DNA from: an uncultured Bacteroidia bacterium
GTDB taxonomy: Bacteria > Bacteroidota > Bacteroidia > Bacteroidales > UBA932
DNA: 64,000 bases
Reading direction: 5' to 3'
NCBI GenBank assembly: GCA_902782225.1
Contig: CACZMF010000018.1
Span: 1-64,000, forward strand
The notes beneath the pieces were generated by a model. That model saw only the letters and a program-made list of their open reading frames with translations. It did no database searches and was not told where the DNA came from. This document shows positions 17,925 through 28,715 of this stretch, piece after piece (the stretch's first letter is position 1; each line of letters opens with the position of its first letter). The position numbers and the translations under genes are program-made.

Positions 17925-19013
17925 TTATTTTTTCAACACGGGGCGGACGGGAAGGCCATAACACCTGGACCCATACGTAATTGAGGCCCCGAAATAGTCA
18001 ACCTTGAAACTATTCGCGTATTCGGATGTCCAAGACATGTCCGTGCAAAGGGTGTTTGTCCAATAATACCCAGTACTGCCTTGGTCGTTCCATCCCGTCC
18101 CTTCCTGATACCCGGCATAAGGGAAGAATACTCTTTTCCTGGGATTGGTTTGTTCTTTCTTGCTGGAGAATAGCATTCCATACACGCCATTGATCTGGGT
18201 TCTCTCATAAGTACATTTGGCTATCAGTTCGTTAAAATCAGCAACTGACGGCGTCTGCCATTGACCATCAAGAAGCATAGCAGCTATATCATCAACATAG
18301 TCCAGCTCATTTTTACCATCCACGAAGCCGTTATTGCCGGTGTCTTTTACCAAACAATACTTCAATAGTTTATTATACGCGCCGGCGCTCCACATATACG
18401 AGCTCCAGTCAAAGCGGCTTTTCTCCGTAGGCTTTTTGGTGTCTCCCCAGGCATAGTAATCTCCATATTCTTCCGGATACGCGGCCCCGATATTTGCCGA
18501 GGCCCAGAGGTTGCCGCTTTCAAGGTCCAGGTCAACAGGACCTTCGGGAAGTGTGAAGAACTTCACAAGCGACGATTCAACAGAATCTTTGGTTCCATAT
18601 TCGGCTTCAGCACTGCAGTAGTATACCGCGCCGTCGTCCAGCCCTGGTAAAACAGCTGAAAAAGGTATCTTTATATCATACGTAATGTCAGGTATATCCA
18701 ACCGACATACAGTACTCTCCTCCAGATAAGTTTTATCTTTTCCATATCTGACGTAAACATTGATATTACGGTCAAAAGATTGCGGAAGCCCTTCTACATT
18801 CCCTTTCAGCAACATCACTCCGGACACCTTCGCATCATTATAATGTACAGTAATATTTTCGGCCATACTCACTGATATGGATATTCCTTCCGGCAGCCCC
18901 ACTTCCTGGACTTTGTCAATCTCAAATAATCCCGAAAAACACTCACAGGCGCAGAACATAGTGGAACATGCAACAACAAGCGCCCAACAGACAAACAGTT
19001 TTCTTGTATTCAT
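17925..19013 (-). CDS. lipoprotein with C-terminal Fib_succ_major domain
   Basis: This 362-residue protein has a lipoprotein signal (TMFCACECF; Cys at about 22-25). An N-terminal Ig/FN3-like region (about 35-155) is followed by a Fibrobacter succinogenes major paralogous domain (about 160-362). Typical features are LWASANIGAAYPEEYGDYYAWG, DGQWQTPSVADFNELI, FFPYAGY, GYYWTN and the end GLPVRPV. Such domains are common on Bacteroidota surface proteins; their ligand is unknown. It has its own copy of the island-specific promoter element and shares its domain type with the giant protein at 21387-25319. Confidence 0.82.
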   Translation of the reverse strand: MNTRKLFVCWALVVACSTMFCACECFSGLFEIDKVQEVGLPEGISISVSMAENITVHYNDAKVSGVMLLKGNVEGLPQSFDRNINVYVRYGKDKTYLEESTVCRLDIPDITYDIKIPFSAVLPGLDDGAVYYCSAEAEYGTKDSVESSLVKFFTLPEGPVDLDLESGNLWASANIGAAYPEEYGDYYAWGDTKKPTEKSRFDWSSYMWSAGAYNKLLKYCLVKDTGNNGFVDGKNELDYVDDIAAMLLDGQWQTPSVADFNELIAKCTYERTQINGVYGMLFSSKKEQTNPRKRVFFPYAGYQEGTGWNDQGSTGYYWTNTLCTDMSWTSEYANSFKVDYFGASITYGSRCYGLPVRPVLKK

Positions 19014-19037: not shown

Positions 19038-19067
19038 CTATAAGAGCAGAAAACAATCAAAATCTAA
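19038..19067 (-). promoter_or_regulatory. island-specific bipartite promoter element, copy 1
   Basis: On the minus strand, TTAGATTTTGA (19067-19057), exactly 10 nt and CTCTTATAG (19046-19038). It ends 24 nt before the ATG of the Fib_succ_major lipoprotein. The same two boxes at the same spacing occur at 27602-27631 and 28576-28605. It does not fit the TTTG/TAnnTTTG housekeeping pattern. Confidence 0.75.
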
Positions 19068-19081
19068 CAGTATGAAAAGAA

Positions 19082-20344
19082 TCAGAATAATTTAAGTTGA
19101 GCAGACCTTGAAGAGTTTCCGTAGCCAAATGTCACGCCGAGAGAAACAACGAAAGAAAGACCGTTGGCAAATGACATCGTTGCAGGTGTGAAATCAACAA
19201 GGTTTCCAAACACGCTGCCTCCAAGCATCGACTTTGCGCCGGCCTTGACATTAACGTTGGCATACGGCAAGGCTGATGAAACTTCCGCACCAAAGAAGCA
19301 GTCAAAGCCGGAAACGCATCCGCTCAGGCCCTTGAAAATCCTGTTCCAGGGAATATAATAAGTCCCCGAAAGGAGAAGGTCAGCGTCAAGTATCCGCGAG
19401 ATGCCTCCCCCAACCCTGAAATCAAAACCCGTCAAAGCGGACAACGCCTGAAGCGTCACTTGCCCATTGATATCATAAAACGCCGCCTGAACAGCATTAA
19501 TTGATAATCCAGGGAGCACATTGACCTTGCCAAGGAACACGGTCGCCGTCTGAGCATACCTGTAATCTTTAAGAATACCACCGTTTTGAGTGCCCGTTGT
19601 GTTGAATGCCGCTGGTGTAGCAAACGGCAGAAACCAGTCTCCTCCAGCAATAACGAATCTTGACTCAAAGAACCCTGGTGCTGGCGACTCATTGACGGCC
19701 GACTCATCCACATCATCAATCGGGACGGCATACACCCGCTTCTCGGCCATCCGCCCGACAGGTGATGGCACTAAATATTTAATTGCGCTTAAACTTTTCA
19801 ACTGCGGTTTGACGACAGCATCTGTGCCTTGTTTCGCGGACACTTTCACGGGACCCCGTTTCTGGGTTATGACCACAAACTGGCTGTCAAGTCCTTTGAC
19901 CGACAGCTCCAGCACCCCGCGGCGGATTTTGTCGGTTGTATTGTCGTGCGCCGTGACAATCAACACATTATGTTGCCTTGCAACTTCGCACCACGAGGGC
20001 AAAGAAAGGACTTGCCAAGTCTCTTCTGTCGTAATGGTTAAAGTTTCCGAAGCCGAGGCAGCAGGAAATGATATTTCTTTCTTAGATAATTTGAAAACCC
20101 GCGAAGATGTTTTATCCACCTTGGCCCTGCACTGTTTAATCAGTTTGTTCGCCTGATCTATTTGCTGACGCGTGGCGCCAGGGACCTTTTTAGCCGCCTC
20201 CAGCATTTTTATAGCTTTGTCGTATTCCCTGGACTCATAGAAGCTCATCGCCTCTTGATAACGTATCTCAAAGCTCTTCTGGGCGAACGCCAGGAAGCAC
20301 GCCATAAAAAGGGCAAGGAGGGTTGTGGCCAATCGCTTTATCAT
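19082..20344 (-). CDS. exported TPR-BACON protein with barrel-like C-terminus
   Basis: This protein of 420 residues has a signal peptide (ending AFAQ), a TPR-like helical pair (about 28-75, RYQEAMSFYESREYDKAIKM), and a BACON-type domain (about 82-165) with KKEISFPAASASETLTITTEETW and VVITQKRG. The C-terminal half (about 210-420) is Gly- and aromatic-rich with alternating strands and ends in LKLF, suggesting insertion in the outer membrane. The start overlaps the TIR gene stop by 4 nt (ATGA), so the two are translationally coupled. This links an outer-membrane partner to the TIR protein. Confidence 0.75.
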   Translation of the reverse strand: MIKRLATTLLALFMACFLAFAQKSFEIRYQEAMSFYESREYDKAIKMLEAAKKVPGATRQQIDQANKLIKQCRAKVDKTSSRVFKLSKKEISFPAASASETLTITTEETWQVLSLPSWCEVARQHNVLIVTAHDNTTDKIRRGVLELSVKGLDSQFVVITQKRGPVKVSAKQGTDAVVKPQLKSLSAIKYLVPSPVGRMAEKRVYAVPIDDVDESAVNESPAPGFFESRFVIAGGDWFLPFATPAAFNTTGTQNGGILKDYRYAQTATVFLGKVNVLPGLSINAVQAAFYDINGQVTLQALSALTGFDFRVGGGISRILDADLLLSGTYYIPWNRIFKGLSGCVSGFDCFFGAEVSSALPYANVNVKAGAKSMLGGSVFGNLVDFTPATMSFANGLSFVVSLGVTFGYGNSSRSAQLKLF

Positions 20345-21285
20345 AGCTTAATTGCGATTTTAATCCCCTCCATTTCCGGATCAGGTTTAATCAAAAGGGC
20401 ATGTTCTATACACTCAAGGGCATTCTCGGCTTCCGTCTCAAGACCAGTTAACCTATACAGTTCATAGGACTCGCGCGAGAAAGCAACCCAAGAATTGAAA
20501 ATGGAATCAAGTTTGGCTTGAACTTCTCTTCGACGTGATGGCACATCAGCATTGAAGAAAGATTCATCAGGAGTTCCTTTGTACAGCAAGGCCAAGCTGT
20601 CAGCCGAAGACAATATTTGTCGCGCCTCTATTAGATTTTGGATTTGCTGATCCGTGGTCTCAAGTGTAGACGCTTGATTCTTGAGCATCATCGCAGAAGC
20701 CAACAAAGAATCAGACGCCGCTATACAACTGTTAAATGCCGCTATATCTGCATCATGGGAAACAGCCGGGGTCCAGAAATAGCGAAGAGCAAAAACTGCC
20801 GCGCAACATAAAACAAGAGCCAACACACAAATCTGCAGCCACGGTTTCTTGCGCCCACCAATATAATCGACAACAGTATCTCGCGGTCGGCTCAGTGCAT
20901 TGAAAATTGCATCAACAAGAGAGGACTCGATTGGGTTGCCCTTCATTTCCAGCCAGTTAGTCGTACTTAAAAGAAATTCAAGCTCTGACGGCATCGGACT
21001 ATTGTCAAGCAAGTATGGCAAAATCATACCGCTCTCTTTATGCTTAAAAGCATAGAAAACTTCCGCCGTCGTGAATTTGGACTTGTATGAACTTGCGCTG
21101 GCAAGAAAAAGGAACACTGATGATTCATCGATTGCTTTCGAGACGACTTCCGTAAAGCTCACACCGGCACTAATACCTTTCCTGTCAATGAAATAGGACA
21201 GGCCAACGTCCGCAAGCGCTTTACACACTCGTTCTGCAATCTTGCTATCCAACCTCGAATAGCTTATGAATACATCATAATGCAT
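20341..21285 (-). CDS. membrane-anchored TIR domain protein
   Basis: This protein of 314 residues starts at MHYDVFISYS. The TIR domain (1-135) shows the box-1 YDVFISYSRLD, the loop IDRKGISAGVSF, the SVFLFLASASSYKSKF strand, and Glu75 in TTAEVFYAF at the place of the NADase catalytic Glu. A single transmembrane helix (about 149-170) is followed by a helical region (171-314), probably on the other side of the inner membrane. A longer frame from 21348 is possible, but the -7 box at 21303-21310 lies within it. TIR proteins act as NAD-consuming effectors or as scaffolds; here a signal from outside may control the cytosolic TIR. It overlaps the BACON gene by 4 nt. Confidence 0.88.
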   Translation of the reverse strand: MHYDVFISYSRLDSKIAERVCKALADVGLSYFIDRKGISAGVSFTEVVSKAIDESSVFLFLASASSYKSKFTTAEVFYAFKHKESGMILPYLLDNSPMPSELEFLLSTTNWLEMKGNPIESSLVDAIFNALSRPRDTVVDYIGGRKKPWLQICVLALVLCCAAVFALRYFWTPAVSHDADIAAFNSCIAASDSLLASAMMLKNQASTLETTDQQIQNLIEARQILSSADSLALLYKGTPDESFFNADVPSRRREVQAKLDSIFNSWVAFSRESYELYRLTGLETEAENALECIEHALLIKPDPEMEGIKIAIKL

Positions 21286-21302
21286 GAGACTTATATGTCT
21301 TG

Positions 21303-21333
21303 CAAAGATACTCATCTTTTGCGAGGATAACAA
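21303..21333 (-). promoter_or_regulatory. promoter of the TIR-BACON pair
   Basis: TATCTTTG (21310-21303) lies 20 nt downstream of TTG (21333-21331) on the minus strand; the -7 box is followed by 17 nt and the TIR ATG. This is the housekeeping type, unlike the three island-specific elements. Confidence 0.68.
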
Positions 21334-21386
21334 TCCGGCGCAAATCAAAGGAAATAATAACGCTTAACCGAATTAAAGACAATCAA

Positions 21387-24300
21387 TTAATCATGTACAG
21401 CGCGTATCGAAATACCTCCAAAATTGATTTTATTCGTTTTATAGATATTCCCTTTCCCATCATCGTCAAAACCCATTAATAAAGAAAAGTGATCAGAAAA
21501 ATCGATGCACGAACAATCAAGCATATAATACCCATGAATATCAACATCCTGAATGAATCTATATGATCCAAAACAATACCCAGCAGCAGGAAGAAAAATG
21601 TAATTATCCTCATATCCTGTTTTGGAGCTTGTTATGAGTACTCCATTTACACCATTTTTATTTACCCATCTCCACTCACATTCATTAATGAGTTCTAAAA
21701 AATCTCTCTCCGAGGGCAAACGCCAACCGTCACCCCATTTTACTCGCGCTGCGTCATCTTCCAAATCAACTACCACTTTATTATCAACTATACCCTTATT
21801 CGCGTTCTTATTGTATTTTGTGAACAAACCTGTATTAACATCGTACCAAACACATGTACCTAGCATATAGTATTCTTTCGGCTCTACCTCTCCAAATGAA
21901 TAATAATAACCATATTCAGTTGGTTTGCGAGCACCAAGATTGAATGCCGCCCATTTCACAGAGAGACCAAGATCGACAATAGCCTCAGGTCCAGGAACAG
22001 GTGGCGGAAGAACTATTACCCGACACTCCGCCCTTTTATTTCCGTCTAAAGTCTCTACCGTAATAATTGCATTACCTTCTTTCAGTGCAAGAACACATCC
22101 ATTTTCATCAACTCTTGCTATTGTATAATCACTTGATGACCACTGGAGTGTTTTATCTTCAGCGGTATTAGGAATAATTGATACTGTTAATGTTTCTGTT
22201 GTTAGTGGATATATTTTTAATTCTGACTTACTAATTGAAATTGACTGAACAAAACTATTTACCGACAACGTCCTTGGCCCACAAACAGCTCGAATTGGAA
22301 GCCCACGACTTCTATCAATGGTGTTTTCGGACTTGGACCCCTCCGAAAAAACCATATAATAATCATTGTAAGGATAATCACCCCCTATTGTGGAAGATAA
22401 ATAAGCGCCTTGATAATCAAAATTGTATAATGATTCGTTTTGATAATACCCAGCCGCCGGCAAAAAAATACTTGAACCGGATGTAGTACTAGTAACAAAA
22501 CAGCCACTATGCCCATTAACTTGGCCCCATGACCAGCGGCAATTATTCTGCAACTCCTCTTGCTCTTCTTTTGTTGGTATACGCCATTCACCACCCAGTA
22601 GAAGATGTGCCGCATCATCGTCACTATCCAACAGATATTTGCAGTCAACAGAACCAAAACCTTTTTTGTTATTATATTTTAATAGATTATCTTTCGTGCC
22701 CCAAAGATAATTAGACCACTTATAGTTATTTTTTGTTTCAAGCTCTCCGAACGCATAATAATTCCCAGATTCTTCTTTCGAATTCGCTCCAAGATTCATA
22801 TTGGCCCACTTGGTTCCGGATGGCAAGCCAAGATCCACGGCTTCCAAACCAGTGACTGTCTGAGCCTCCGTCACTGCAACCTGGCACAAGGCCGAATAGT
22901 TGCCATCGTGGGTGGTTACAGTTATGGTGGCATTTCCCTCAGATTTAGCAACAACAACTCCTGTCGCACTAACTGTAGCCACCGATGAATCTGAACTACT
23001 CCACGTTACAGTCTTATCGTCGGCATCTTTAGGGAGCACTTCGCACGTAAGTTGCTCCGAATCGCCAACATACATATTCAAGTTCTCCGGTGATATTGAA
23101 ACAGAAGCGACTGGAACAACCTTCTTCTTGACGAGAACCGAACAATCGGCCCTCTTGCCACCATCACGTGTCTTAACGGTTATCGTCGCGCTGCCTTCCT
23201 CTTTGGCTTCAACGACACCATTGTGGTCCACAGCGGCAATTGCCGGATAGCTACTCTCCCATGATACCGATTTATCGAATGCTATTTCCGGCTCGACAAT
23301 GGCTGTCAGCGCATGTGTCTCACCAACCATCAGCGTTAATGAATTCGGGCTAATCTTAACATCTGTAACAGAAATACTTACCGATACGGAACATTCATCT
23401 TTATAGTTTCCGTCCACAGTTGTGACGGTGATGGTCGCAGTACCATTCCCCACTGCTTCAACCAGTCCGGAATCATTCACGCTGGCGACTTTCTCATCGG
23501 AAGTAGACCAGACAACATCCTTTTTACTCGCATTATCCGGAGAGACAGATGCCGTAAGTTGAACTGAATCATCAACTTTATGCATCTCTACTTCTTTGGG
23601 CGTTACCGAAACAGACGAAACGGGGATAATCTTCTTTTTAACGGTAACTACACAATCAGCTCGTTTACCCCCATCATCGGTTATAACAGAAATCGTCGCA
23701 GGAGATCCGTCGGCAGAAAGAGCGAGCAAAACACCTTTATCGCTGACAGAAACCACAGACTCATCACTGGTCCGCCAGGAGACCAAATGGTTATCTGCAT
23801 CAGCCGGCTCAATTGTGTAGGCCAGAGTGCGGCTTTCGCCTTCCTCCATCGTAATACTTGTTGCCTCAAGACTTATCCCGGTTACGTGAATGGTTTCTTT
23901 CTTGATTGTAACGTGACTTTTCGCCTGGAATTCACCACCATCGTGGTCTTTTACAGTGACAAGAATATCAGTATCTCCTACTCCAACTGCTTTTATTTCG
24001 CAAGTCCTGCCATCTGCCCCTTCAACAGCAGCTAAAGCACTATTATCGCTGGACCATTTGATTTCAGAAACTGACGCTGTCGAAGGATTAATCGTTACTG
24101 TTATTGATTGTTTCCTGCCAACAATCATTGATAGTTCTTCCCGGTCTATCGAAACGCTTTGAATCGGTGTGGTAACTAAAACGCTGCACTGATCTTCCTT
24201 GCCTCCATCTTTGGTCGTGACCGTGATTGTCGCTTCTCCATTGCCAAGCGCTTTCACTTCGCCTGTTTTACTCACAGTGGCAACATTATCCGGATGGCTT

Positions 24301-25319
24301 GCCCAGGTGACATCCTTGTTTGTAGCATTATCCGGCAAAACAATTGCTTTAAGATTATATGTCTCGCTAACATGAAGCTTTAATTCCTTAGGATCAACAG
24401 TTACGGATTCAACCCCAATAGGAGTAACACTCACATAACAAGTGCCGAATACTCCGCTGCCATCAACAGTTCGTGCCGTTATAGCCACAGGTCCACTACC
24501 AATCGAGACAGCAACAACCTCACCTCCCTCATCAACATCCACGACACCAGCATCAGCCGATTCCCACGTCACCGTAGGATCCGACGCATTTTCCGGTTCA
24601 ACAATTGGAGTTAGTTTCATTCTGCTTCCAACAGGAAGCTCATAATTCGGACGCTCGAAACGTATTTGCGTTACCAGTATAATCTTTTTATTGACAATAA
24701 CATGACATGATGCAGTATGATTGCCGTCAACTGTGGTGGCTGTAATGTCTGCCTCCCCGGCCAAAAGCGCCTGCACTTCGCCGTTCTGGTTGACAGAAGC
24801 GACGGCATCATCGGAACTAGACCATACTACAGACTTGTTTGTGGCGGATTCCGGCTCTACGGACGCCGTTAGCCTTACGGCCGGATCACCCTCCGTCATA
24901 ACAAGGCTTTCCTGATCAAGAGACACTCCAGTGACGGGAGAAACCTCTGTTGTAAAAGACTTTACGTTGCCGTAATATGTTTTCCCCCCGACGGTCAGGA
25001 AAGATTTATAATTGTATGTGGTCCCGGAAGACAAACCGACAACAACGACGGTCATTGTGCAAGTTACATCAATGTGCATTGCCTTAGCAACGATGCCGCT
25101 TTCTATGTCGAAAACTGGCTCCGTCGACAATACCATACCGGTTGATACATCACCCATCGATGGCCCAAAGCGGGATACTCCGCTCAGGACCACCGAATTA
25201 ATAGTTATTTCAGAAGCTGTACCTGTTTCCGTTTCTGCTATTATTTCTGTCAACGGATTCTCGCAAGCGCAAAGCAGAGCCAGAAGCAGAAGACAATAGC
25301 GTCTAATTGTTTTCATCAT
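21387..25319 (-). CDS. giant lipoprotein: nine Big_2 Ig-like repeats and two Fib_succ_major domains
   Basis: This protein of 1310 residues has a lipobox (LLALLCACEN), a short FN3-like unit (about 35-120) and eight consecutive Big_2 domains (about 125-840). Each repeats a pattern such as LTASVEPESATNKSVVWSSSD, ending ITVTTxDG. Then come a Fib_succ_major domain (about 850-1000), a ninth Big_2 (about 1005-1095), and a second Fib_succ_major domain to the C-terminus (WAAFNLGARKP, GISIRAVHD). This is the layout of a long surface adhesin or receptor stalk with binding heads. The start is 2 nt after the C39/RyR gene; ATGs at 25319 and 25316 are equally placed. The gene is markedly AT-rich. Confidence 0.88.
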   Translation of the reverse strand: MMKTIRRYCLLLLALLCACENPLTEIIAETETGTASEITINSVVLSGVSRFGPSMGDVSTGMVLSTEPVFDIESGIVAKAMHIDVTCTMTVVVVGLSSGTTYNYKSFLTVGGKTYYGNVKSFTTEVSPVTGVSLDQESLVMTEGDPAVRLTASVEPESATNKSVVWSSSDDAVASVNQNGEVQALLAGEADITATTVDGNHTASCHVIVNKKIILVTQIRFERPNYELPVGSRMKLTPIVEPENASDPTVTWESADAGVVDVDEGGEVVAVSIGSGPVAITARTVDGSGVFGTCYVSVTPIGVESVTVDPKELKLHVSETYNLKAIVLPDNATNKDVTWASHPDNVATVSKTGEVKALGNGEATITVTTKDGGKEDQCSVLVTTPIQSVSIDREELSMIVGRKQSITVTINPSTASVSEIKWSSDNSALAAVEGADGRTCEIKAVGVGDTDILVTVKDHDGGEFQAKSHVTIKKETIHVTGISLEATSITMEEGESRTLAYTIEPADADNHLVSWRTSDESVVSVSDKGVLLALSADGSPATISVITDDGGKRADCVVTVKKKIIPVSSVSVTPKEVEMHKVDDSVQLTASVSPDNASKKDVVWSTSDEKVASVNDSGLVEAVGNGTATITVTTVDGNYKDECSVSVSISVTDVKISPNSLTLMVGETHALTAIVEPEIAFDKSVSWESSYPAIAAVDHNGVVEAKEEGSATITVKTRDGGKRADCSVLVKKKVVPVASVSISPENLNMYVGDSEQLTCEVLPKDADDKTVTWSSSDSSVATVSATGVVVAKSEGNATITVTTHDGNYSALCQVAVTEAQTVTGLEAVDLGLPSGTKWANMNLGANSKEESGNYYAFGELETKNNYKWSNYLWGTKDNLLKYNNKKGFGSVDCKYLLDSDDDAAHLLLGGEWRIPTKEEQEELQNNCRWSWGQVNGHSGCFVTSTTSGSSIFLPAAGYYQNESLYNFDYQGAYLSSTIGGDYPYNDYYMVFSEGSKSENTIDRSRGLPIRAVCGPRTLSVNSFVQSISISKSELKIYPLTTETLTVSIIPNTAEDKTLQWSSSDYTIARVDENGCVLALKEGNAIITVETLDGNKRAECRVIVLPPPVPGPEAIVDLGLSVKWAAFNLGARKPTEYGYYYSFGEVEPKEYYMLGTCVWYDVNTGLFTKYNKNANKGIVDNKVVVDLEDDAARVKWGDGWRLPSERDFLELINECEWRWVNKNGVNGVLITSSKTGYEDNYIFLPAAGYCFGSYRFIQDVDIHGYYMLDCSCIDFSDHFSLLMGFDDDGKGNIYKTNKINFGGISIRAVHD

Positions 25320-25321
25320 GT

Positions 25322-26341
25322 TTATGGTTCTTGCAATCTTTTTCCGCAATTTGGACAATATTTCATAGTGCTGGATACATACTCACCACAATGGGGGCAA
25401 TACAAGGTATACCGGCGAGTAATGTTGAAACCAAGTTTCCGGACAAGGCGGATGGTGTTGAGGGCCATGTCGCGATCGTAATACTTTTCTCCCTCAGAGA
25501 GTTCTCCGTAAGGAACCATGTCGGGATGCAGCATCTTTTTGTCGTCACGTTCAGGTCCGTATCGCCAACCTTCGGACCTACGCTTGCTTGCCCAGATCTC
25601 ATGAGCGTTCTCCGCGATTGCCTCCGTCAGATCCGTCAAATCCTCATCCAGTTCCACTTCACTCACATCTATCGGATGGGGTATGTATTCAAGGGAATCC
25701 GCTGAAGCGCAGACCATATAGAAGCCAGAATACCGCCAGGCCTTTGTGAATTCTTCAGAAAGATAGTTTCCGAATCCGTCTATGGCCGGATCATAAATAC
25801 GGACGACTCCGTCTGTTACCGACAGCACCACCACAGCATGGAATACTCCGTTGGATTCCTTATCCCAAAGCTGGCCGTAATCAACAACGGTTATGACCTT
25901 GACGTTTTGTACCAACTTATCTGTCAGCTCTTCTAACGAGCTATGATATTGCCTCGTGACGGTCATCCCATATTTCTCGAGCAAGCGTCCGACATTATGG
26001 AGCGGGGTTCCTGACTCCTTCAGCCAGCGGTTGTCAAGGGCTTCAGACAGAAACTCATTCTCTTCCAATACCTTTTCGGAATAGTTGTTCAAGATAAAGC
26101 GCTCGCACATGACGTCACAGAGGTTGCCCTCCGAAACGGACGCCATACTGGCCATGGGAATCACGCCGCTGTCTTCATCCAGGGCCCCGGCCTGCTTCAT
26201 GGACTCAAGGATTCCAACGACATTGCGAAGATCTTCATCCTCCTTCAACGCCATAGACACCAGGGCCATCTCTTCAAGAGTCGCCTTTCCCGATACATAC
26301 CGGTCAATAACATCCTGTGATATAATATGTTTCGACTTCAT
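25322..26341 (-). CDS. C39-like cysteine peptidase / RyR / zinc-ribbon protein
   Basis: The protein has 339 residues and no signal peptide. The N-terminus (1-50, VIDRYVSGKATLEEMALVSM) looks like an anti-sigma N-terminal helix pair. Residues about 68-212 resemble a papain-like C39 domain with a possible triad Cys75 (or Cys79), His168 (GVFHAVVVL) and Asp184 (RIYDPA). Residues 240-305 match the RyR repeat (IWASKRRSEGWRYGP, HPDMVPYGELSEGEKYYDR). The C-terminus is a zinc ribbon with Cys315, 318, 329 and 332. It follows the sigma factor by 4 nt. It may be the anti-sigma regulator or a sensor-protease; the function is inferred, not known. Confidence 0.75.
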   Translation of the reverse strand: MKSKHIISQDVIDRYVSGKATLEEMALVSMALKEDEDLRNVVGILESMKQAGALDEDSGVIPMASMASVSEGNLCDVMCERFILNNYSEKVLEENEFLSEALDNRWLKESGTPLHNVGRLLEKYGMTVTRQYHSSLEELTDKLVQNVKVITVVDYGQLWDKESNGVFHAVVVLSVTDGVVRIYDPAIDGFGNYLSEEFTKAWRYSGFYMVCASADSLEYIPHPIDVSEVELDEDLTDLTEAIAENAHEIWASKRRSEGWRYGPERDDKKMLHPDMVPYGELSEGEKYYDRDMALNTIRLVRKLGFNITRRYTLYCPHCGEYVSSTMKYCPNCGKRLQEP

Positions 26342-26345
26342 ATGC

Positions 26346-27008
26346 TTATGACATTATCATTTTTTTTGCTGTTTCTTTAAATTGCTTCTTTGCCAACGAT
26401 ACCTTGACATAAAGATTATCTATCGGTATGTCCAGCTGACGCGCAAGGGCCTGCATCTTTTCCGATTTCTCCCGGCCCTTGTATTGGCCAACCTCCAGGG
26501 TGACCTCATCCAAAATCTTAGCGTATGTCCGGTTCGGCATTGCCTTTATCACATCAGCCACAAAATCTCGTGCTTCCACTGATGATTCATCCGCCTCGAA
26601 ATCGCAGTTTGCCACCAGTAATGAATCAAGTGACGGATTATCAAGGCCTTTGTCGTGGTTGATCTTTTCGTGGAGGAAGAAATAGTATGCCGTGGTGATT
26701 ATCCAGCCCATAAGAGCCTTTGGCTCGGATATCGTAGCCAGTTTGTCTCCGGAAATCAAGTAGTAATAAAAATCGGACACAAGTTCTTCATAGCTGAAAT
26801 GATCCGATCCATACAAAGAGTGCAGAACCTTAAGGAGACCTGGACGGCATGTGACGCAAACTGGTTTTCTCATCCTGGCAGCCATCATCGGATCTGTCTT
26901 CCGTACTTCTTCAATATGCTGCAACGTAGGGCCGTCCCAGAAGAAAAAGCATCTGGTGACCCTATCGTCGCGTTCGCGAAGCCGTTGGATAATCTCCTCG
27001 AAGGTCAT
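26346..27008 (-). CDS. sigma-70 family (ECF-like) sigma factor
   Basis: This protein of 220 residues has region 2-like helices at about 80-135 (YEELVSDFYYYLIS, MGWIITTAYYFFLHEK) and a region 4 helix-turn-helix at about 160-215 (MPNRTYAKILDEVTL, QALARQLDIPIDNLYVKVSLAKKQF). It would direct RNA polymerase to a private promoter set. The gene is followed within 4 nt by the C39/RyR protein, the usual place for an anti-sigma factor. Three nearby promoters share a distinctive bipartite element that is the best candidate for its target. The N-terminal 70 residues are unassigned. Confidence 0.78.
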   Translation of the reverse strand: MTFEEIIQRLRERDDRVTRCFFFWDGPTLQHIEEVRKTDPMMAARMRKPVCVTCRPGLLKVLHSLYGSDHFSYEELVSDFYYYLISGDKLATISEPKALMGWIITTAYYFFLHEKINHDKGLDNPSLDSLLVANCDFEADESSVEARDFVADVIKAMPNRTYAKILDEVTLEVGQYKGREKSEKMQALARQLDIPIDNLYVKVSLAKKQFKETAKKMIMS

Positions 27009-27012
27009 ATCG

Positions 27013-27020
27013 CAAATTTA
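27013..27020 (-). promoter_or_regulatory. -7 element of the sigma factor gene
   Basis: TAAATTTG lies only 4 nt before the sigma factor ATG on the minus strand. The transcript would be leaderless, or start just inside the gene. No -33 TTTG at the right distance is seen. Confidence 0.55.
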
Positions 27021-27051
27021 ACAATTCTTCCTGAATAATACCTGAATATCC

Positions 27052-27573
27052 TTAGAACCTCATTGCAAGTCCGGCGCCGGCATAGGATCCAATAGGAGAA
27101 TAGCCAACAAATACGCCTGCTCCAAGTTTTTCAGTAAAGAAATACGACACGCCTGCGGATCCAGCAGCCCGAACTGATACCGACTGTGATAAAACCTGTG
27201 ATACTGTCAGCCAATATGCTCCAATGGATAGTTTTGCATAAAGATCCAGTTTGTTAACAGCCGTGCAGTGAAGAGCGGCCATTGGCCCGACAAAGAAGTG
27301 TCCATATGAAGTAAACGTAAAATCAAGCTGCCCGCCAACACCCAGAGAATAGTTTTCAATAAAGTCGGCCACTTTGTAATCTGCATTGATGCGAACTGGC
27401 ACACCTAATCCTAACCCAACTCCTGCAAATGCATTGAGTTTATATGTCGTGTTGGGCTGTTTTGTAATCTGCTGGCTATCGGACGACCCGCCGTTAACGA
27501 CCTGGGCAGAAAGAGTGACAGGAACAATCAAAAGGGCAACTATTGCAGCAATAATAATGGAATTGTGTTTCAT
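27052..27573 (-). CDS. small outer-membrane beta-barrel protein
   Basis: This 173-residue protein has a signal peptide (MKHNSIIIAAIVALLIVPVTLSAQ). The mature part is Gly- and aromatic-rich with repeated amphipathic strands (NAFAGVGLGLGVPVRINADY, LYAKLSIGAYWL, AGLAMRF) and ends in Phe, as expected of an eight-strand-type barrel. It has its own copy of the island promoter element at 27602-27631. Specific role unknown; it could be the outer-membrane partner of the island's sensor system. Confidence 0.72.
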   Translation of the reverse strand: MKHNSIIIAAIVALLIVPVTLSAQVVNGGSSDSQQITKQPNTTYKLNAFAGVGLGLGVPVRINADYKVADFIENYSLGVGGQLDFTFTSYGHFFVGPMAALHCTAVNKLDLYAKLSIGAYWLTVSQVLSQSVSVRAAGSAGVSYFFTEKLGAGVFVGYSPIGSYAGAGLAMRF

Positions 27574-27601
27574 GGTATGTGTGTTTTATTTCGTTATCTG
27601 C

Positions 27602-27631
27602 CTATAAGAGTTATTTCTTTTCATTTTCTAA
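27602..27631 (-). promoter_or_regulatory. island-specific bipartite promoter element, copy 2
   Basis: On the minus strand, TTAGAAAATGA (27631-27621), 10 nt and CTCTTATAG (27610-27602), ending 28 nt before the ATG of the barrel gene. The upstream box lies inside the last codons of the preceding gene, which suggests selection to keep it. Confidence 0.72.
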
Positions 27632-28549
27632 CAGAAGAACCCACCCTTTATCGCAATAGTATTTCAAAGCAACTTCCATCAATGAACGACTTCCATTATC
27701 GATTCCATGATAGATTCGCCCAGGATCAGTAACTTTTTCCTTTTGGAGAATGACTTCAGCCGTGGCTACAGGACCTGTCAATCCATCAATTACTACAATA
27801 TTTCTTGCTTTTACTGCTTTTACAGAATACGCCTTCAAATAATGAGGCTCACTGGTAAAAACAAGTTCTGAATAATCAGCAACCCGAAGAGAATCACTAT
27901 ATACAGTTTTCTCCTTCGATGTTTCCTTCTTCTGGCTTTCAGAATTCTTCTGTGCGTTATCGGTCATTTGTTCCTGCCTGCGTCTTGACGGACTAATAAA
28001 CGGATTCTCTATCTCCGGCCATGTCTCGTCAATTCTTTGTTTGTTCCATTCATACTTTGATTCCTTTATTACAGGCTGAACCATGTCCTTATCCTCTCGT
28101 TTCACCGGAGTTGGTAATTCATCCACCTCCAGCTTTTTCCCCTTAGATGTCAAAAAAACCGATACTACATAATGGTCGCAGAACTGATAATCATCTTCTT
28201 TAACCCATTTATATTCAGTGTCGTTGTAATAGCCCAACCAGCCTGACTTCCTGACGGTGTGTGACTTCTTCACGCTTCTGCTCGTTTTCTCCCACCAAGC
28301 ATAGCGATCTACAGAATAATCAATTAGTCCAGCTGCAGACATTGAACGCAGACATTTTCTTGCTTCAACGTCATTACATTCATATGTCCCGGTACGAATC
28401 TCGACAAAGGCCTGATTCGTAGCCAGGTCTGACAGATTTGTATTAACCTGATTAACAATTAAAGCACTGGAAACCGTTTTGGTCGAGTGGCCACAGCCAA
28501 TCACCAAAAACTCAGAGATAGCGATTGTGATAATAATTATTCGTTTCAT
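27611..28549 (-). CDS. lipoprotein of unknown family
   Basis: The protein has 312 residues, with a lipobox LVIGC (Cys19). An N-terminal alpha/beta region (about 35-145) contains the aromatic segment YAWWEKTSRSV and SGWLGYYNDTEYKWV. A charged, low-complexity middle (about 185-215, SRRRQEQMTDNAQKNSES and following Lys/Glu) is followed by a second small domain ending in KYYCDKGWVLLLENEKK. I do not recognise the family. It is the first island gene on the minus strand and has a copy of the bipartite promoter element. Confidence 0.7.
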   Translation of the reverse strand: MKRIIIITIAISEFLVIGCGHSTKTVSSALIVNQVNTNLSDLATNQAFVEIRTGTYECNDVEARKCLRSMSAAGLIDYSVDRYAWWEKTSRSVKKSHTVRKSGWLGYYNDTEYKWVKEDDYQFCDHYVVSVFLTSKGKKLEVDELPTPVKREDKDMVQPVIKESKYEWNKQRIDETWPEIENPFISPSRRRQEQMTDNAQKNSESQKKETSKEKTVYSDSLRVADYSELVFTSEPHYLKAYSVKAVKARNIVVIDGLTGPVATAEVILQKEKVTDPGRIYHGIDNGSRSLMEVALKYYCDKGWVLLLENEKK

Positions 28550-28575
28550 TTTGCACTAGATTTTATTTCTTTTTC

Positions 28576-28605
28576 CTATAAGAGAAAAACAGCGTCAAAA
28601 TCTAA
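28576..28605 (-). promoter_or_regulatory. island-specific bipartite promoter element, copy 3
   Basis: On the minus strand, TTAGATTTTGA (28605-28595), 10 nt and CTCTTATAG (28584-28576), ending 26 nt before the ATG of the lipoprotein gene. The upstream box is identical to copy 1, while the 10-nt spacers differ, so this is not simply a recent duplication. Confidence 0.75.
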
Positions 28606-28715
28606 TGCATTAAAATGTCGTATTTGCTATGAATTATTAATCAACCATATTCACGTGCAAAACAGGCCCTACCATCAATTGGCGGACCTGATGCAACAGG
28701 AGTAATGCCGATAGT

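Follow-up and report, generated by a model that had tools for sequence, protein, structure and literature searches.

Three genes of an island on contig CACZMF010000018.1 (assembly GCA_902782225.1), from an uncultured gut/rumen-type Bacteroidia bacterium of the Bacteroidales lineage UBA932, are preceded by the same pair of short sequence boxes—and the same island encodes a sigma factor. Is this sigma factor the one that reads them? The window, that is, the whole stretch analyzed here, comprises 64,000 nucleotides (nt; positions 1 to 64,000 of the forward strand). A sequence-only reading of it had described the boxes as a bipartite promoter private to the island, with TTAGAN3TGA as its first half and the neighboring sigma factor as the natural candidate to read it. 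With considerable confidence, we regard the three boxes as promoters of the extracytoplasmic function (ECF) type, which the sigma factor encoded at 26346–27008 (minus strand) would read and which would drive the envelope-type genes of the island; the partner protein encoded next to it probably holds the sigma factor.

On the sequence itself, the boxes stand on the minus strand at 19038–19067, 27602–27631, and 28576–28605. They are separated by a 10-nt gap and end 24, 28, and 26 nt 5' of the ATGs at 19013 (a lipoprotein-like gene, 17925–19013), 27573 (a gene for a small barrel-like protein), and 28549 (a second lipoprotein-like gene), just as had been described. The window holds three exact matches versus 0.01 expected—a count reached by none of 100 shuffles—and no match beyond these three when up to three mismatches are allowed. 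Scanning the whole assembly (2.58 Mb in 34 contigs, 92% complete) adds no copy at up to two mismatches, in line with the earlier impression by eye that there are none outside the island; at three mismatches it gives two extra matches versus six for the reversed control pattern. The frequent copies at unrelated genes that had been named as the contrary outcome did not occur in this genome. Across the family, in a set of 299 genomes that includes the own one, box matches at up to two mismatches were not commoner than those of the reversed control: one other genome has a match with one mismatch, and the rest bear two mismatches.

The element in related sigma–partner loci

The sigma gene is followed by the gene of a partner protein with Peptidase_C39 and RyR domains, and a search of genome contigs with five such partners yielded 171 relatives, of which 80 were retrieved. 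In all 80 loci, an open reading frame (ORF) of at least 110 amino acids (aa) ends beside the start of the partner gene. Judged by eye and by a tree, these ORFs appear to be one sigma family, with L041, L043, and L049 as very divergent members. A tree of 81 sigmas groups the window sigma with those of L032, L033, and L034 in a clade (support 100/98) on a long branch.

Comparison with these nearest relatives revises the boundaries of the element. Its core is TGTTAGATTT-N13-CTCTTATAG, present in this form at 19038–19069, as TGTTAGAAAA-N13-CTCTTATAG at 27602–27633, and as CATTAGATTT-N13-CTCTTATAG at 28576–28607. The copy at 27602–27631 runs into the 3' end of the upstream lipoprotein gene, covering its stop and final six codons, and this overlap may be the reason for the AAAA in that copy. 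At up to three mismatches, the core has three sites in the own genome and one, two, and five in the genomes of the three nearest sigma relatives, with 0, 0, 2, and 2 for the respective controls. Ten of these 11 sites lie 17–52 nt before an ORF-opening ATG and the 11th runs into a contig end; by inspection, the genes that come first behind them are those of lipoproteins, membrane proteins, small barrel-like proteins, and a secreted protein. TGA, which had been taken as a conserved part of the first box, occurs in all three window sites but at that position in none of the seven complete sites of the relatives, two of which carry it one base further on; it was hence dropped from the element. Counting gapped word pairs de novo in the window clade likewise returns TTAGA-16-CTCTTA with seven different spacers, and none in the shuffle. 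The exact window form, TTAGA-N16-CTCTTATAG, has no match in the 76 other partner genomes (control 12). It turned up only where the sigma is of the window clade, with no matches or control-level numbers in the other genomes. The label "private" fits within the own genome but not beyond, as the element recurs in other species.

Outside the window clade, a related form emerges. In the de novo counts, GATAG or ATAGA is paired with TCTATA or CTCTTT with five different spacers in the Rik set, five in the Prev set, and four in the RyB set, compared with three or none in shuffles. A looser pattern has 71 matches in the 81 loci, 54 of them with a 17-nt gap, versus 31 on reversed sequence. The strict form TGATAGA-N17-YTCTWTA, which equals the window form in length when both are aligned on TATAG, was then counted in whole genomes. 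The first 42 of these contain 66 matches in 31 of the 38 that are not of window type (control 8) and none in the four that are; all remaining partner genomes contain 40 matches in 19 of 38 (control 3). Combined, this corresponds to 106 sites in 50 of 76 partner genomes, with 11 for the reversed control. As judged from these sequences, the window element is the local form of a putative promoter type found across Bacteroidales—the sequence-only reading had recognized the right kind of element, but bounded it wrongly. The co-occurrence with homologues of the sigma factor that it had proposed as a check does hold across genomes.

Placement relative to genes points in the same direction. We call a site promoter-placed if it is followed within 120 nt by the ATG of an ORF that is 60 aa or longer (or runs off the stretch) and does not itself lie in a longer ORF. 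Of 105 distinct strict sites in the retrieved sequence, 67 are promoter-placed, 22 lie inside an ORF, and 16 are neither. When 4000 positions drawn at random from the 80 partner loci are put through nearly the same test, 324 qualify. The distance to the ATG is 17–75 nt at 64 of the 67 sites, 6 nt at one, and 103 and 108 nt at the others. Two conserved boxes at a fixed spacing shortly before start codons—the form of an ECF-type promoter—are what these sites have in common, and very probably the recurrent strict sites are such promoters, read by the island's type of sigma factor. The most frequent recognized first gene behind the promoter in the relatives is that of a standalone RyR protein (20 of 67 sites), compared with a vWA-like protein with SGSM at two sites and a TIR protein at one. 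Conversely, 13 of 30 nonpartner RyR ORFs in the loci have a site at most 130 nt upstream. Near-variant boxes are frequent upstream of small standalone RyR genes that lack a strict site (L080:14151, L106:4113, L073:13682, L086:12881, and others). The regulon can also be dispersed, since the genome of L084 (G326) carries seven strict sites on seven contigs (with L143–L148), among others near an FHA-like/kinase-like pair and a zinc-ribbon membrane protein.

Two observations concern the divergent sigmas. GTAAGA..CTCTT occurs five times in L043, and one occurrence precedes an ORF of 60 aa or longer. In L041 and L049, both Prevotellaceae, a near-identical leader AGAAGTTGCGCTCGACACG stands upstream of several secreted-protein-like genes, its end 17–18 nt from their ATGs (L041:12637, 17239, and 18557; L049:12635, 15479, 16012, and 17423); this leader could not be fitted to the two-box form.

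Weighing the assignment to the sigma factor

The product of 26346–27008 is taken as a very divergent ECF sigma factor, an identity that rests on its relatives and on a fold model. Among the relatives, L024, L025, L026, L029, and L030 match the TIGR02937 sigma70-ECF profile; the curated cut-off is passed by L030 alone, which has no partner gene next to it. The AlphaFold2 model of the 220-aa window sigma, computed from 33 alignment rows (predicted local distance difference test, pLDDT, 84.6), displays two helical parts linked by a low-confidence joint (pLDDT below 50 at 123–140), which fits a layout of sigma2 and sigma4 without sigma3. Its top fold matches are ECF sigmas—the first three PDB matches by Foldseek are sigmaE–RseA, SigW–RsiW, and AlgU–MucA (E 0.0095–0.037)—and its C-terminal part superposes on region 4 of sigmaE with a TMt of 0.66. 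A search of PDB chains by sequence gave nothing useful. That this protein reads the boxes is what we infer from the co-occurrence of motif and sigma family.

A number of results weigh against this assignment. Neither Pfam nor NCBIfam has a profile that matches the window sigma, and the model of this protein finds no Foldseek match at E of 0.001 or below, the best being 0.0095. For the Rik set, the promoter-like pair is outranked by GAGGA-16-GATAAT (seven spacers), which is unrelated to it, and in the Muri, P3, Cac, and Ali sets no promoter-like pair led the de novo count. The first batch of genomes was partly picked after the looser-pattern matches had been seen, and the remaining batch is poorer (19 of 38 versus 31 of 38). 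A strict TGATAGA-type site is missing from 26 of the 76 family-bearing genomes, among them those of the cultured Prevotella communis E15-14 (L086) and Barnesiella sp. An22 (L055), and in the 299-genome sample only three of the seven genomes with a full-length partner match carry the strict form (eight sites). The single site of one of these three, G109, is nearly identical in G120, G141, and G191, relatives without a full partner, so that this site may not belong to the sigma factor. The split between the two forms is not absolute, as intermediate forms exist (GTTAGA with a 17–18-nt gap in L042, L046, L076, and L086), and L035, which comes next in relatedness after the window clade, has no promoter-placed site of either form. 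Finally, 22 of the 105 sites lie inside ORFs, nine of them in the sigma gene; these nine were excluded from the promoter-placed count. They arise from the sigma protein sequence itself, through similar residues MI(D/E)..S..xLY (L046, L056, L063, L068, L073, L080, L101, L102, and L106), and are probably a coding coincidence, with an internal promoter as a conceivable alternative.

Could something else bind the boxes? A repressor or activator—a two-domain regulator or the zinc ribbon that the window partner indeed carries—might do so while a different sigma factor transcribes the genes. We consider this unlikely: the element is asymmetric, has −35/−10 geometry, and keeps a promoter's distance from start codons; its strict forms divide along the sigma clades; and the sampled zinc-ribbon columns are gapped in 45–46 of 81 partners. 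Moreover, the element stands where the housekeeping −7 consensus, TAnnTTTG, is missing, as no such box lies within 120 nt upstream of the three motif-bearing window genes. It is also quite improbable that the sites are read by another ECF sigma factor of the genome, even if Bacteroides genomes, according to PMC12596196, bear many of these. The exact window form follows the window-clade sigmas, and in the 292 sampled genomes without a full-length partner the TGATAGA form does not exceed the reversed control (24 sites in 22 genomes, versus 51 control matches in all 299 by our own count).

An origin by chance or by recent duplication of a short segment, finally, may be considered very remote. Two of the three window copies do have TTAGATTTTGA in common, but the expected number in the window is tiny, the 10-nt spacers are unrelated, and the same core element precedes similar kinds of genes in other species. 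Unrelated spacers and presence in other species also led us to discard a duplication or mobile repeat, and they bear out the earlier statement that the boxes are conserved rather than merely duplicated. Transcription by the island's own sigma factor hence remains the reading we favor.

The partner, the island genes, and a possible signal

The partner (25322–26341, minus strand) matches RyR (PF02026, E 4e-30) and Peptidase_C39 (E 4e-5, 23.9 bits versus a cut-off of 22) as well as zinc-ribbon profiles, and ends in a zinc ribbon. Its model (pLDDT 84.9) starts with three N-terminal helices that are followed by folds of C39-like and RyR type. In the PDB, it is closest to RyR entries of Bacteroides thetaiotaomicron (54–57% identity) and, further down, to C39 domains, e.g., that of PCAT1. 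C75, H168, H247, W250, and R265 are invariant in all 81 partners. At the D184 position, 68 partners carry Asp, nine Asn, and four Glu; C75, H168, and D184 are assigned by us as the predicted catalytic triad of the C39 domain. The RyR domain is recognized by both its profile and its putative ligand residues H247, W250, and D289, the latter present in 80 of 81 partners, while the H272 position is His in 45 of 81. Adjacency to the sigma gene and the three modeled N-terminal helices suggest that the partner is a putative anti-sigma factor.

A preprint (PMC13232231) describes phage RyR proteins that cleave or sequester 2'/3' cyclic ADP-ribose (cADPR) with the ligand residues H75, W78, H100, and D117. 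The H-x2-W spacing given there is the same as in the partners, whose D289 and H272 would be placed at phage D117 and H100.

By start position, the minus-strand genes of the island follow one another as lipoprotein-like (28549), barrel-like (27573), sigma (27008), partner (26341), Big_2 (25319), TIR (~21285), BACON (20344), and lipoprotein-like (19013). The first lipoprotein-like protein (27611–28549, 312 aa) and the small protein with a signal peptide that is barrel-like by inspection (27052–27573, 173 aa) belong to no Pfam family. The partner gene begins 4 nt after the sigma gene, and the ATG of the Big_2-repeat protein (21387–25319, weak Lcl_C match) lies 2 nt after the partner gene. The TIR-domain protein (20341–21285) has an uncertain start codon, a likely membrane helix, and weak ThsB and SAVED-TIR profile matches. 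It is followed by a BACON-domain protein (19082–20344; by domain profile) whose C-terminal part is barrel-like by inspection, and by the lipoprotein-like protein at 17925–19013. The latter had been labeled a Fib_succ lipoprotein; it is lipoprotein-like, but no Pfam match stands behind the Fib_succ label. Gene content around the sigma–partner pair varies: in L024:9934-16897 (G245), of the same genus, the genes downstream of the pair are others, among them those of a radical-SAM-activase-like and a coiled-coil protein.

Boxes of the TAnnTTTG type lie within 120 nt upstream of the sigma and the TIR genes, as TAAATTTG at 27013–27020 and as TATCTTTG at 21303–21310 just before the TIR gene (both minus strand). 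The former is only 4 nt from the sigma ATG, possibly giving a nearly leaderless mRNA. From these boxes, sigma and TIR genes may be made constantly, and their lack at the motif-bearing genes agrees with a permanently available sensor and a switchable output.

A TIR ORF, as detected by a profile from six TIRs (window, L032, L033, L034, L025, and L026, the last two being the places of L048 and L039), occurs within ~10 kb in 55 of 80 partner loci (raw count); the profile finds none in the other 25, some of which are on short contigs. In 40 genomes, PF13676 has 1–14 matches per genome at E of 1e-5 or below. For the window-type relatives G299, G300, and G301, the match in the island is the sole one, and for the own genome it is one of two.

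These elements allow a mechanism to be proposed. RNA polymerase with the sigma factor of 26346–27008 would start transcription at TGTTAGATTT-N13-CTCTTATAG, with TGTTAGATTT as the −35-like and CTCTTATAG as the −10-like element, and would switch on the two lipoprotein-like genes and the barrel-like gene. The copy at 27602–27633 could drive the entire barrel–sigma–partner run; with the sigma and partner genes in that run, the system may feed back positively on itself. The sigma factor would be kept inactive by the adjacent partner until a signal frees it. The RyR domain might bind a nucleotide signal, for which the TIR protein of the island is a plausible source, and release might proceed through the C39 protease domain. 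The pairing of RyR with TIR hints at a nucleotide akin to cADPR, the conservation of the C39 residues hints at release by proteolysis, and the action of phage RyR proteins, which cleave or bind TIR-made cADPR (PMC13232231), leads to nucleotide-triggered sigma release as a hypothesis. Signal, protease step, and biological role are hypothetical at this stage. Spelled out in full—an NAD-derived second messenger, namely a TIR-made cADPR isomer, captured by the RyR domain within a soluble anti-sigma factor, C39 freeing the sigma factor, and the standalone RyR proteins acting as an off-switch that destroys or soaks up the signal—this scheme is a tentative one, which we would sooner doubt than expect to hold.

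Relation to known systems and meaning

Sigma factor and promoter are of a known kind; the putative sensor is the unusual part. Escherichia coli sigmaE/RseA and Bacillus subtilis SigW/RsiW share with the island the two-part helical sigma factor (1or7 and 5wuq are the best PDB matches), the adjoining gene of a putative inhibitor with three N-terminal helices, and the two-box −35/−10 promoter. Unlike in those systems, the inhibitor candidate bears C39 and RyR domains. The motif TG(A/T)TAGA..CTC(T)TATAG also differs from the GGAAC..CGTC type, which is the promoter type of sigmaE/SigW-like ECF sigmas. Phage RyDEP (RyR/R12, PF02026), as presented in PMC13232231, is of the same domain family as the partner RyR, with H-x2-W found in 81 of 81 partners and the later Asp in 80 of 81; here, however, RyR forms one protein with C39 and a presumed anti-sigma part, and the presumed equivalent of H100 is a His in only 45 of 81. 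The putative ryanodine receptor 3nrt of B. thetaiotaomicron and related entries, to which the RyR part of the partner is 54–57% identical, are standalone domains.

Thoeris resembles the island in its TIR gene and in the weak ThsB profile matches. Nevertheless, no ThsA was found among the seven island proteins scanned with PADLOC, and the output would be transcription here. Among the matches listed in a literature search, from which subscription papers fell mostly outside, no title or abstract addressed this sigma–partner pair, its promoter, or a link between RyR and ECF sigmas. A 2015 paper on nucleotide-centered conflict systems reportedly discusses prokaryotic RyR domains.

With this work, an uncharacterized, widespread sigma family of Bacteroidales gains a recognizable promoter and, thus, a readable list of candidate target genes. 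The RyR domain is also a part of animal calcium channels; its prokaryotic version, as in the phage proteins that disarm cADPR immune signals, is placed here next to a transcription switch. Whether TIR signals control bacterial gene expression hence becomes a directly testable question—and if the proposed scheme is true, Bacteroidales would run a dedicated transcription program with the chemistry of TIR immune signaling.

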